Part shown: in pieces, positions 18,515 to 23,641 of the stretch
How positions within the stretch are numbered: position 1 is the stretch's first letter
How the letters are laid out: each line of letters starts with the position of its first letter
Assembly (NCBI RefSeq): GCF_029263575.1
Contig: NZ_JAJUFV010000011.1
Location: 1-34,491, forward strand
DNA: 34,491 nt
Origin: Microbacterium sp.
GTDB lineage: Bacteria > Actinomycetota > Actinomycetes > Actinomycetales > Microbacteriaceae
Direction: 5' to 3'
Translations under genes and position numbers: made by a program
The notes under the pieces: generated by a model
What the model was told of the DNA's origin: nothing
Databases searched by the model: none
What the model saw: only the letters and a program-made list of their open reading frames with translations

Positions 18515-19549
18515 CTACGCGTCGCCGCCGAACATGCTGGTGACGGAGCCGTCTTCGAAGACCTCACGGATCGCTCGGGCCAGCAGTGGCGCGATAGGAA
18601 GGATCGTGAGCCCATCCCAACGGCGCGACTCGGTCAACGGGATCGTGTCAGTGACGACGACTTCGTCGATCGCCTCGTCTTGCAGCCGCTCGTTGGCCGG
18701 GTCGCTGAAGATCGCATGCGTCGCCGCGACGATGACGCGGTGTGCGCCGTTCGCTTTGAGCGCCTGCGCCGCTTTCACGATGGTCCCGCCCGTGTCGATC
18801 ATGTCGTCGACGAGCAGACAGGTGCGACCCTCCACCGCGCCGACGATCTCGTGCACCGAGACCTGGTTGGCGACCTTCGGGTCACGGCGCTTGTGGATGA
18901 TCGCCAGCGGTGCGCCGAGGCTATCTGACCAGGTGTCGGCGACGCGCACACGCCCCATGTCTGGGGAAACGACCGTCAAGATCTCGCGATCGGCAGCGCT
19001 CAGCGTGCGCTCGAAGTAGTCCAGCAGCACGGGCTTGGCGAACAGATGATCGACCGGACCATCGAAGAAGCCCTGGATCTGCGCGGCGTGCAGATCGACG
19101 CTCATGTCGGGGTCGGCGCCAGCGGTCTTGAGCAGGTCCGCGACCAGACGGGCGCTGATCGGCTCACGACCGCGGCCCTTCTTGTCTTGGCGCGAGTACG
19201 GGTAGTAGGGAGCGACGACGGTGATGCGCTTGGCCGATGCGCGCTTGGCGGCATCGATCATGATGAGCGTCTCTATCAGCCATTCGTTGACGGGCTCGCC
19301 GAAGGTCTGAACCAAGAAGAGGTCACAGCCGCGGATCGATACCTCGAAGCGCGAGTAGATCTCACCGGAGGCGAAGGTGCGGTGCTCGGTCGGGGCGATC
19401 TCGGTGCCGAGGCCCGCTGCGACGGCGGCGGTCAGCTCGGGGTGCGAGCGGCCGCCCGCGACGACGAGTCGCTTCTTCGTCTTGGCGATGATCCCCGGGG
19501 CTACGCCGTTTTCACGATCCAACTCAGTCGTCTTCTTCTTGCGCCCCAT
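18515..19549 (-). CDS. prs: Ribose-phosphate pyrophosphokinase
   Basis: PRPP synthetase transfers pyrophosphate from ATP to ribose 5-phosphate, supplying nucleotide, His and Trp synthesis. The 344-residue product shows FASGEIYSRFEVSIRG, VVAPYYPYSRQDKKG (ATP loop), SVDLHAAQIQGFF, VVSPDMGRVRVADTWS, and the PRPP loop VDDMIDTGGTI. It is somewhat longer than the usual 310-325 residues because of a basic N-terminal stretch (GRKKKTTELDRENG). The ORF track start at 19630 runs into glmU. ATG 19549 is 8 nt after the glmU stop, with AAGGCAGG upstream. Co-transcription with tRNA-Gln and glmU is likely. Confidence 0.96.
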   Translation of the reverse strand: MGRKKKTTELDRENGVAPGIIAKTKKRLVVAGGRSHPELTAAVAAGLGTEIAPTEHRTFASGEIYSRFEVSIRGCDLFLVQTFGEPVNEWLIETLIMIDAAKRASAKRITVVAPYYPYSRQDKKGRGREPISARLVADLLKTAGADPDMSVDLHAAQIQGFFDGPVDHLFAKPVLLDYFERTLSAADREILTVVSPDMGRVRVADTWSDSLGAPLAIIHKRRDPKVANQVSVHEIVGAVEGRTCLLVDDMIDTGGTIVKAAQALKANGAHRVIVAATHAIFSDPANERLQDEAIDEVVVTDTIPLTESRRWDGLTILPIAPLLARAIREVFEDGSVTSMFGGDA

Positions 19550-19557
19550 GACCTGCC

Positions 19558-20988
19558 TTACTCTGTGGCTCTGCCGGCCCGGGACGCCGCCTCTGCGGCG
19601 CCGGTTCCGGCCCGGTTCTTCTCGACCCACCCCTCAACATTTCGCTGAGGGGCGACGCTCAAGGCCAGGGCACCAGCGGGGATGTCTTTTCTGACCACCG
19701 CTCCCGCTCCGGTCTTCGCTCCGTCTCCGATTCTAACCGGCGCCACGAACACGTTGTGCGACCCGGTGTGAACCTCGTCACCGATCTCGGTGCGGTGCTT
19801 GACGAGGTCATCGTAGTTAGCCGTGATGGCTCCGGCGCCGATGTTGGCCCTCTCGCCGATCGTGGTGTCGCCGATGTACGACAGGTGCGGCACCTTGCTG
19901 CCCGCGCCGATCTGCGAGTTCTTCGTCTCGACGAACGTGCCGATCTTGCCACCGTCGGCGAGGACGGTGCCCGGGCGGATGTAGGCGAACGGTCCGACGT
20001 TCGTCTTTGTTCCGATCACGGCGAGGGTCGCGTCGGTGCGGCGGATGACCGCGTCTTCGCCGACCTCGCAGTCAACGAGCGAGGTGTCGGGACCGATCTG
20101 CGCGCCGGCAGCGACCACGGTCGCTCCCGCGATGTAGGTGTTGGGAAAGAGCGTGACATCGGGCGCCAGCTTGGCGTCGTCATCGATCCAGGTCGTCGCC
20201 GGATCGATGATCGTCACGCCCTCAAGCTGCCAGCGACGCACGATGCGCGCGTTGAGCAGCCTGCCCACCTCAGCCAGTTGGGCACGATCATTGACGCCGA
20301 ACGTCACCGTGACATCCTTGACGACGGATGCCGCGACCTTCTGACCAGCCCGGCGCAGCAACGCGGGGACGTCAGTGAGATACTTTTCGCCCTGCGCGTT
20401 GTCGACCCCGATTGTCGGCAGGTGCTCGCGCAGCGCAGACGCACGGAACACATACATGCCGGCATTGATCTCGGCAACCGCGGCTTCGTCTGCCGTGGCA
20501 TCCTTCTGCTCGACGATGCGGTCGACGTCGCCCTCAGCATCGCGAATCACGCGGCCGTACCCGGCCGGTTCGTCGACGACCGCCGTCATCAGGGTTGCCG
20601 CAGCGTCGGCTGCGCGGTGCTCGGCGATGAATGTCGCGAGCGTCTCAGCATCCGCCAGCGGGCAGTCTCCCGAGAGAACGAGCACGTCGCCGTCGAAATC
20701 GGGGATCGCATCGATCGCGACCTCGACGGCGCGCCCCGTGCCGGGCACGTCATCCTGATCGACGATCGTCGCGTCGGGGTACTGCTTCGCAAGCACATCG
20801 ACGACCCGGTCACGGTCGTGCCGCACGACGACTTCGATGTGCTCGGCACCCAGACGGGATGCCGCGGTGAGAACGTGCCCGACAAGCGGGCGTCCGCTGA
20901 TCGGATGCAGCACCTTCGGCAGTCGCGATTTCATGCGCGTGCCCTGGCCAGCGGCAAGAACGATGATCGCCAGCTTGTTCTCGGTCAT
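19558..20988 (-). CDS. glmU: Bifunctional UDP-GlcNAc pyrophosphorylase/GlcN-1-P acetyltransferase
   Basis: GlmU acetylates glucosamine 1-phosphate and then uridylates it to UDP-GlcNAc, the precursor of peptidoglycan. The 476-residue protein has an N-terminal nucleotidyltransferase (LAAGQGTRMKSRLPK at 11-25, LSGDCPLAD, NAQGEKYLTD) and a C-terminal left-handed beta-helix with hexapeptide repeats. The acetyltransferase residues lie in the later repeats (VGPFAYIRPGTVL, KVPHLSYIGDTTIGERANIGAGAITANYDDL, GSHNVFVAPV). The ATG is one nucleotide after the 3' end of tRNA-Gln, and no usable ribosome binding site lies before it, so translation probably follows tRNA processing. prs follows 8 nt after the stop. 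Confidence 0.96.
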   Translation of the reverse strand: MTENKLAIIVLAAGQGTRMKSRLPKVLHPISGRPLVGHVLTAASRLGAEHIEVVVRHDRDRVVDVLAKQYPDATIVDQDDVPGTGRAVEVAIDAIPDFDGDVLVLSGDCPLADAETLATFIAEHRAADAAATLMTAVVDEPAGYGRVIRDAEGDVDRIVEQKDATADEAAVAEINAGMYVFRASALREHLPTIGVDNAQGEKYLTDVPALLRRAGQKVAASVVKDVTVTFGVNDRAQLAEVGRLLNARIVRRWQLEGVTIIDPATTWIDDDAKLAPDVTLFPNTYIAGATVVAAGAQIGPDTSLVDCEVGEDAVIRRTDATLAVIGTKTNVGPFAYIRPGTVLADGGKIGTFVETKNSQIGAGSKVPHLSYIGDTTIGERANIGAGAITANYDDLVKHRTEIGDEVHTGSHNVFVAPVRIGDGAKTGAGAVVRKDIPAGALALSVAPQRNVEGWVEKNRAGTGAAEAASRAGRATE

Positions 20989-20989
20989 G

Positions 20990-21061
20990 CTCCGCCGCCA
21001 GGACTCGAACCTGGACTTAACAGCTCCAAAGGCTGTCGTGCTGCCATTACACTACGGCGGA
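20990..21061 (-). tRNA. tRNA-Gln (anticodon UUG)
   Basis: The 72-nt gene folds as a full cloverleaf. The acceptor stem is TCCGCCG/CGGCGGA with the U1-A72 pair usual for tRNA-Gln and discriminator G. The D arm is GTGTAATGGCAGCAC. The anticodon stem is ACAGC/GCTGT with loop CTTTGGA (anticodon TTG). The T arm is CCAGG-TTCGAGT-CCTGG. CCA is not encoded. The next base is C, followed at once by the glmU ATG. Confidence 0.96.
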
Positions 21062-21076: not shown

Positions 21077-21136
21077 CAGCCACGGATCAATTCTGCCATG
21101 CCCGAGGGAGAGGTCACTGACCGGTGGACGCCGGAG

Positions 21137-22364: not shown

Positions 22365-22393
22365 TTGCGGCTTTCGAAGTTTTGTTCGATAAT
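22365..22393 (+). promoter_or_regulatory. Leaderless promoter of the HNH gene
   Basis: -35 TTGCGG (22365-22370), a 17-bp spacer and -10 GATAAT (22388-22393). The -10 ends 6 nt before ATG 22400. Confidence 0.7.
22374..22389. promoter_or_regulatory. LexA (SOS) box of the HNH gene
   Basis: TCGAAG-TTTT-GTTCGA matches the actinobacterial LexA site TCGAAC-N4-GTTCGA at 11 of 12 defined positions. It lies in the spacer and touches the -10, a typical place for repression. Confidence 0.7.
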
Positions 22394-22399
22394 AGCACT

Positions 22400-23641
22400 A
22401 TGCCCATCACAGCAGAACGGACGGATCCGGTTATCGCCGATGAGCGTCGTGCCGCCCCGCTCGATGAATGGGTCGATCTCGGGGCGCAGATCGCCGCGCT
22501 TGAGGCACGCCGCGCGACGGTGCTCGCCGAGCGTGCTGCGCTGCTCGCATACGAGACAGGGCCGACTGTCGCCTACAGCTCCATGGCGGAGCGATCGGCG
22601 ATTGCAGAGTTTTCGGCGGCCGGCCACGTTTCGTCGCGATCGATGAGCCACCAGTTCGGCGTCGGCATCGCACTCGCGAACGAGTACCCCGAGACGCTTC
22701 GCGCGCTGAGTGAGGGGCGAATCAGCCGTCGTCACGCCGAGGTGATCCTGGAGGCCGCACCGCGCAACATCGACGACGCCGACGATGGCGGAGCGACACT
22801 GCGGGCCGCCTACGAGCGCGATGTCGTGCCGTACGCCTGCGGCACGACTCCCCCGCGCACACGGGCACATGCGCGGGCGGTAGCCGCAACGCTGCAGCCG
22901 GTGACGCAGGAAGAAGCTCATCGCGAAGGGCGGAAGGAGCGAGAGGTTCGTGTGCGTCCCACCGACGATGGCATGGCGCAGATGCTCAGCGCTATTCCTG
23001 AACTGCTGGCCTTCGCTATCTTCGATCGGCTGACGGCGATGGCCGCCGCGATGGATGACGACCGCACGATGGACCAGCGACGCGCCGACCTCTTCTGCGA
23101 CCTGCTGCTGACCGCTGTGCCGTCGTCGGCCGTGGGAACCGATATGGAAGCATTCCGCCCGACAGTGCAGGTCACGATCGCGGCCAGCACGCTCGCCGGT
23201 CACGATGATCTGATGGCCGAACTCGACGGCGTTGGTCCGATCCACCCCGACCTCGTCCGCAGCCTGGCGGGGAACGCACCGAGCTTCACCCGGCTCTTTC
23301 TCGACCCGAGCGGCATGGTTACCAACGTCGACACCTACGTCCCCTCCAGCAGGATGAAGCGCTATCTGCGGGCCCGAGATCAGCATTGCCGGTTCCCCGG
23401 ATGCCGGGCGAAACCCTCTCGGTGCGAAATCGACCACAACCACGATCGTGCTCTGGGCGGGGCTACGGCGCTGAACAACCTCGCTTGCTTCTGTTCGAGT
23501 CATCATCCACTCAAACATCCTGATGTCGACGCACGACATCGATGGACCGTCCGGCAACAGCCGGAAGGAACACTGATCTGGCGGAGCCCGCTCGGGCGCA
23601 AGTACATCGACAGCCCGGAACTGCGCGTGATGTTCGTGTAG
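22400..23641 (+). CDS. DUF222/HNH endonuclease domain protein (13E12 type)
   Basis: The 413-residue product has an N-terminal helical DUF222 region (about residues 25-290; EAxxR and SRRHAEVILEAA segments) and a C-terminal HNH nuclease domain. The latter shows HCRFPGC (Cys330, Cys335), CEIDHNHDRALGG (Asp345, His346), TALNNLACFCSSHH (Asn360, Cys364, His368) and a W-rich tail. This is the 13E12-type family, often multicopy in actinobacterial genomes and of unclear role; several mycobacterial members are in the LexA regulon. The start is ATG 22400, not the TTG of the ORF track, because of the leaderless promoter. The stop lies in a short tandem repeat. Confidence 0.88.
   Translation: MPITAERTDPVIADERRAAPLDEWVDLGAQIAALEARRATVLAERAALLAYETGPTVAYSSMAERSAIAEFSAAGHVSSRSMSHQFGVGIALANEYPETLRALSEGRISRRHAEVILEAAPRNIDDADDGGATLRAAYERDVVPYACGTTPPRTRAHARAVAATLQPVTQEEAHREGRKEREVRVRPTDDGMAQMLSAIPELLAFAIFDRLTAMAAAMDDDRTMDQRRADLFCDLLLTAVPSSAVGTDMEAFRPTVQVTIAASTLAGHDDLMAELDGVGPIHPDLVRSLAGNAPSFTRLFLDPSGMVTNVDTYVPSSRMKRYLRARDQHCRFPGCRAKPSRCEIDHNHDRALGGATALNNLACFCSSHHPLKHPDVDARHRWTVRQQPEGTLIWRSPLGRKYIDSPELRVMFV

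Follow-up and report, generated by a model that had tools for sequence, protein, structure and literature searches.

In animal mitochondria, the excision of tRNAs creates mRNA 5' ends with very short leaders or none at all, and these tRNA-punctuated messages are translated as leaderless mRNAs. The cut at the 3' end of the mitochondrial tRNA is made by RNase Z (ELAC2). To our knowledge, the leaderless mRNAs of bacteria are held to originate at promoters. Leaderless mRNAs account for 33% in C. glutamicum (PMC3890552) and for 24% in M. smegmatis when leaders of up to 5 nt are counted (PMC6448022), and in P. acnes 138 starts lie at the transcription start site or within 10 nt of it, with both AUG and GUG in use (PMC3848588). 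Leaderless mRNAs are also generated in E. coli by MazF (cited in PMC3848588).

The window analyzed here is the whole stretch of 34,491 nucleotides from a Microbacterium genome, and it carries a tRNA-Gln(UUG) gene that adjoins glmU, followed by prs (Table 1). The preliminary description of this DNA had placed the discriminator G at 20990, a single C at 20989 and the glmU start codon from 20988, and reading the minus strand confirmed all three: ...GTTCGAGTCCTGG-CGGCGGA-G(20990)-C(20989)-ATG(20988). The Rfam tRNA model stops at the discriminator, while ARAGORN gives the tRNA-Gln(TTG) as 20989-21061 because it includes the C. It was the sole tRNA-Gln(UUG) gene found in the assembly by the tRNA survey. 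The score of the GlmU ORF exceeds the NF010932 cut-off of 611 bits, and no other ATG, GTG or TTG occurs between its ATG and the conserved LAAGQGTRM motif. The nearest named relatives are nearly all from Microbacterium, with GlmU identities of up to 81%, and the assembly belongs to that genus group. No terminator was found at the junction, and prs starts 8 nt past the glmU stop codon. Elsewhere in the window, an ORF of 419 aa on the plus strand (22382-23641) has a C-terminal HNH-like motif (CRFPGC...CEIDHNH...HH) and resembles, judged by eye only, the HNH-endonuclease/DUF222 proteins of actinobacteria.

Table 1. Features at the tRNA-Gln/glmU junction and in the adjoining transcription unit (window coordinates).
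Feature	Position	Strand	Basis
Predicted -10 element CAGAAT of the tRNA-Gln-glmU-prs unit, inside the conserved block TGGCAGAATTGA	21090..21095	-	conservation
tRNA-Gln, anticodon UUG, G73 = 20990, CCA not encoded	20990..21061	-	ARAGORN; Rfam RF00005 66.3 bits; tRNA survey
Single base (C, position 74) separating discriminator and start codon; predicted cut on either side	20989..20989	-	sequence; C74 in tRNA genes
glmU, bifunctional UDP-N-acetylglucosamine diphosphorylase / glucosamine-1-phosphate N-acetyltransferase, ATG start	19558..20988	-	NF010932 672.8 bits
prs, ribose-phosphate diphosphokinase, ATG at 19549, probable co-transcript	18515..19549	-	NF002844 519.6 bits

In tRNA punctuation the start codon stands 0-3 nt past the 3' end of a tRNA on the same strand, and here that distance is 1 nt. 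As in mitochondria, tRNA excision would create a short or leaderless mRNA 5' end at glmU. The glmU case differs in that it concerns a bacterial chromosome, a single tRNA-mRNA junction and an organism from which RNase Z is apparently absent, and no shared descent is implied. It resembles the leaderless mRNAs of C. glutamicum, Mycobacterium, Cutibacterium and Streptomyces in having an RTG within a few nucleotides of the proposed 5' end and no Shine-Dalgarno sequence; however, the known ones are started at promoters and bear a triphosphate, whereas the glmU end would be cut and bear a monophosphate. It also resembles bacterial tRNA-mRNA co-transcripts, in which a single RNA carries a tRNA together with a coding sequence and is cleaved at the tRNA, but those keep an mRNA leader, usually with a Shine-Dalgarno sequence, and the glmU junction would leave none. 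Like the mRNAs made by MazF, the glmU mRNA would arise by cutting and not by transcription, although MazF is a toxin that cleaves under stress and the tRNA maturation proposed here would be constitutive.

The junction was compared over 209 non-redundant glmU upstream regions, a set nearly all from the same family and weighted towards close relatives, in which glmU start sites were assigned by rule. In a first group of about 104/209 loci, the tRNA-Gln adjoins glmU with a gap of exactly 1 nt; this gap was assigned to 105 loci, and 104 were left once L176 was removed, which has an SD-led GTG further down and was probably misassigned. The second group (63/209) has the tRNA-Gln 16-214 nt upstream of glmU, which fits the ordinary form of a tRNA-mRNA co-transcript. 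A Shine-Dalgarno sequence is present in 51 of these 63, and some of the remainder have a -10-like box beside the start. The third group (41/209) has no tRNA upstream: 20 of the 41 carry AGAAT or AGACT at the position expected for a leaderless start, another 16 lack this element but have a Shine-Dalgarno sequence, and in 5 neither is present. Gaps of 0 or of 2-15 nt did not occur among the 168 loci with an upstream tRNA.

Conservation of the 1-nt gap, which the preliminary description had regarded as informative, was found in 73/73 named Microbacterium-clade loci and, by a pattern search, in 18/18 same-genus genomes including the source genome, all of them reading exactly tRNA-G-C-[A/G]TG. Since the exact spacing is kept throughout these loci and genomes, the junction is more than chance. 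Within the first group, the median identity between loci at fourfold-degenerate sites is 51%, 9-35 codons precede the LAAG motif, and the -10 block lies 21-73 nt, mostly 21-46 nt, ahead of the tRNA. Of the 104 loci, 97 start with ATG and 6 with GTG. Judged from these comparisons, the junction is fixed while its surroundings drift, and recent ancestry does not explain its constancy. The junction is also found in the genera g2, g34, g57 and g80, in one Agromyces and in G568, a genome of another family (GlmU of 501 aa). Two outside matches to the junction pattern, in G450 and G408, were rejected, the downstream gene not being glmU. Among other tRNA-gene pairs in two genomes, short starts were seen near tRNAs, none of them established as a real gene at 1 nt. 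One further locus (L019, G289:C1) has tRNA-Gln-C, then a mini-ORF (ATG CTG AAG TAA) and then an SD-led glmU start 28 nt past the tRNA, which looks like a replaced leaderless start.

The preliminary description had also stated that no usable Shine-Dalgarno sequence is present, and this is essentially right: the closest purine run is GGAG, 1 nt from the ATG and within the acceptor stem. In the relatives that do not have the junction, glmU is mostly preceded by a leader with a Shine-Dalgarno sequence or by a promoter placed for a leaderless start, whereas the junction genomes have neither, because the acceptor stem fills the bases just upstream. The median anti-SD pairing is -4.8 kcal/mol in the junction genomes versus -7.7 kcal/mol in the relatives with a tRNA and a leader. 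The junction combines the two features expected of a leaderless message, no upstream Shine-Dalgarno sequence and an ATG or GTG start, and from its geometry the leader of the glmU mRNA is predicted to be 0 or 1 nt long.

Upstream of the tRNA, a TGGCAGA[C/A]TTG block is conserved in the loci of the first group. In many relatives without the tRNA, the same predicted -10 element stands 6 nt ahead of the glmU start (GGCAGAAT-N6-ATG). At the junction itself, the place of a -10 hexamer for a promoter-made leaderless mRNA, some 7 nt ahead of the glmU ATG (at -12 to -7), is taken by the T-stem and the acceptor stem, and no such hexamer is present. It is likely that tRNA-Gln and glmU-prs are transcribed together.

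A cut before C74 would give pCAUG, the 1-nt leader of the preliminary description, and a cut after C74 would give pAUG; the two are about equally probable. Mapping has placed endonucleolytic cuts beside tRNA 3' ends in S. coelicolor and in P. acnes, where a tRNA-Gln(TTG) is among the tRNAs concerned. In both organisms, P. acnes being without an obvious RNase Z, the cuts in CCA-encoding tRNAs fall between the two Cs, which corresponds to a cut after C74. If one encoded base stays on the tRNA after such processing, C74 should be encoded nearly everywhere. A C directly follows the discriminator in 39/40 tRNA genes of the source genome, in 46/46 of the complete genus genome G106 and in 34/34 sampled from G568 (L191-L229; L279-L324; L328-L357), most of which do not encode CCA. 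If only the genes without CCA are counted, C74 is found in 27/28 (source genome) and 34/34 (G106), and positions 75-76 vary. This pattern suggests an unusual rule of 3'-end processing in the order. A tie between C74 and the loss of RNase Z was considered and rejected, since G568 has an RNase Z and yet encodes C74.

RNase Z, which had been named as the cutting enzyme, was not supported. No TIGR02651 match was found in the source genome, whose assembly is 88% complete, and 0/60 family genomes gave a match above the cut-off. Because actinobacterial RNase Z falls short of the TIGR02651 cut-off, the RNase Z of a relative was the better query; searched in 26 genomes, it matched only in G148 and G568 and in 0/13 genus genomes. 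RNase Z was rejected as the probable cutter, no gene for it having been found in these 13 genus genomes. More broadly, RNase Z is undetectable in Microbacterium and in most sampled Microbacteriaceae and is present in two genomes of genus g2 (G001, G148). An RNase E/G homologue, with Val at the position equivalent to F67 as in mycobacteria, and an actinobacterial CCA-adding enzyme are present. In mycobacteria, RNase E cleaves on the 5' side of cytidine, at RR↓CNU (PMC10641625). The junction, AG↓CAU, fits this site and is the sole match among the tRNA 3' ends of two genomes (1/46 and 1/40). Part of this fit is built in, since A72 and G73 are bases of tRNA-Gln and the U comes with any NTG start at gap 1, and the match is not independent evidence. 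Mycobacterial RNase E also favours single-stranded sites, and position 72 at the junction is paired.

We propose that one promoter, 28 nt upstream of the tRNA-Gln(UUG), would give rise to a tRNA-Gln-glmU-prs precursor. The 5' end of the tRNA would be made by RNase P, and an endonuclease, either RNase E or another tRNA 3' nuclease, would cut at its 3' end within 1 nt of the discriminator, after which the CCA-adding enzyme would complete the tRNA. The same cut would release a 5'-monophosphorylated glmU-prs mRNA, pCAUG or pAUG, that would be translated by the leaderless route ordinary in Actinobacteria. What the sequences show is the geometry, its conservation, the lack of a Shine-Dalgarno sequence and of a leaderless promoter, the presence of RNase E and of the CCA enzyme and the failure to detect RNase Z; co-transcription, the cut with its exact site, the enzyme and leaderless translation are inferred. 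With neither a Shine-Dalgarno sequence nor a leaderless promoter at the junction, cleavage at the tRNA 3' end is the simplest source of the mRNA 5' end. The argument of Shell et al. that mycobacterial leaderless transcripts come from transcription and not from processing (PMC4633059) counts against the model. On the sequence evidence as a whole, we consider the model of one promoter, a tRNA 3' cut and a leaderless glmU-prs mRNA probable. Thus, of the preliminary description's proposal, the leaderless mRNA made by tRNA processing is supported by the comparison of relatives and RNase Z is not. An active, regulatory link from tRNA maturation to the making of cell-wall precursors and PRPP, as was also suggested, is speculation.

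Other ways to read the junction have to be weighed against this model. If a promoter within the tRNA gene transcribed glmU separately, the mRNA would have its 5' end inside the tRNA or at the ATG. There is a TAGTGT near the 5' end of the tRNA-Gln that fits TAnnnT, and in relatives a separate leaderless promoter is often present at glmU; however, a start at TAGTGT would give a leader of about 50 nt made of partial tRNA and devoid of a Shine-Dalgarno sequence, and the hexamer needed for a start at the ATG itself is missing. A scan found no promoter-like site, although its consensus was of the E. coli type, which makes this weak evidence. Such a promoter would also leave the gap of exactly 1 nt unexplained, and we regard it as unlikely. 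The spacing could instead be a frozen accident that arose when the genes were packed together and that does not matter for the expression of glmU. The junction genomes belong mostly to one genus and its neighbours and are not independent in that sense. The synonymous sites have nevertheless strongly diverged and the flank lengths vary, yet intermediate gaps do not occur, the start codon has switched between ATG and GTG in place, and the junction is found in the further genera listed above and in another family. An accident of this kind seems improbable to us.

It could also be supposed that the tRNA-mRNA precursor is translated uncut, the purine-rich acceptor stem serving as a Shine-Dalgarno sequence once the tRNA unfolds. 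The acceptor stem does read GGAGG, 6 nt ahead of the start, in a few further genera that share the junction, and the precursor is predicted to fold better, by 3.6 kcal/mol, in a form that breaks up the cloverleaf. In most junction genomes (81/104), though, the acceptor reads GGCGG and not GGAGG, the anti-SD pairing is weaker than in the genomes with a leader, and identical acceptor variants are seen at loci whose tRNA lies far from glmU. Each use of an uncut precursor would moreover cost one tRNA, and we give this reading very little credence. In the free fold of the precursor (20940-21061, minus strand), the T-arm and the 3' strand of the acceptor of the tRNA pair with the LAAGQG codons of glmU. 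Refolding of the precursor as a switch was rejected: the difference from the cloverleaf seen here falls to a median of only 2.1 kcal/mol over 103 relatives.

Processing at the tRNA 3' end remains the reading that we prefer. We also lean, with some reserve, towards its stronger form, a bacterial counterpart of mitochondrial tRNA punctuation: throughout Microbacterium and in some relatives, the mRNA of glmU, an essential cell-wall gene, would have no functional 5' end other than the one made by the 3' maturation of tRNA-Gln without RNase Z, and the mRNA would be monophosphorylated, leaderless and in a strict 1:1 ratio with the tRNA. Each ingredient is already known, namely leaderless mRNAs, tRNA-mRNA co-transcripts and endonucleolytic cuts at tRNA 3' ends. 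A search of open-licence PMC papers found no report of a leaderless mRNA processed from a tRNA in bacteria. Because the gap is either 1 nt or at least 16 nt, the junction is a natural test of how far a start codon may stand from the 5' end. It points to another tRNA 3' endonuclease, or to RNase E acting as one, in bacteria seemingly without RNase Z, with the GlmU protein as a readable downstream product. If the model is true, these bacteria would have a conserved and constitutive leaderless mRNA that owes its 5' end to RNA cutting, and the translation of an essential gene would be set by nothing but RNA maturation.
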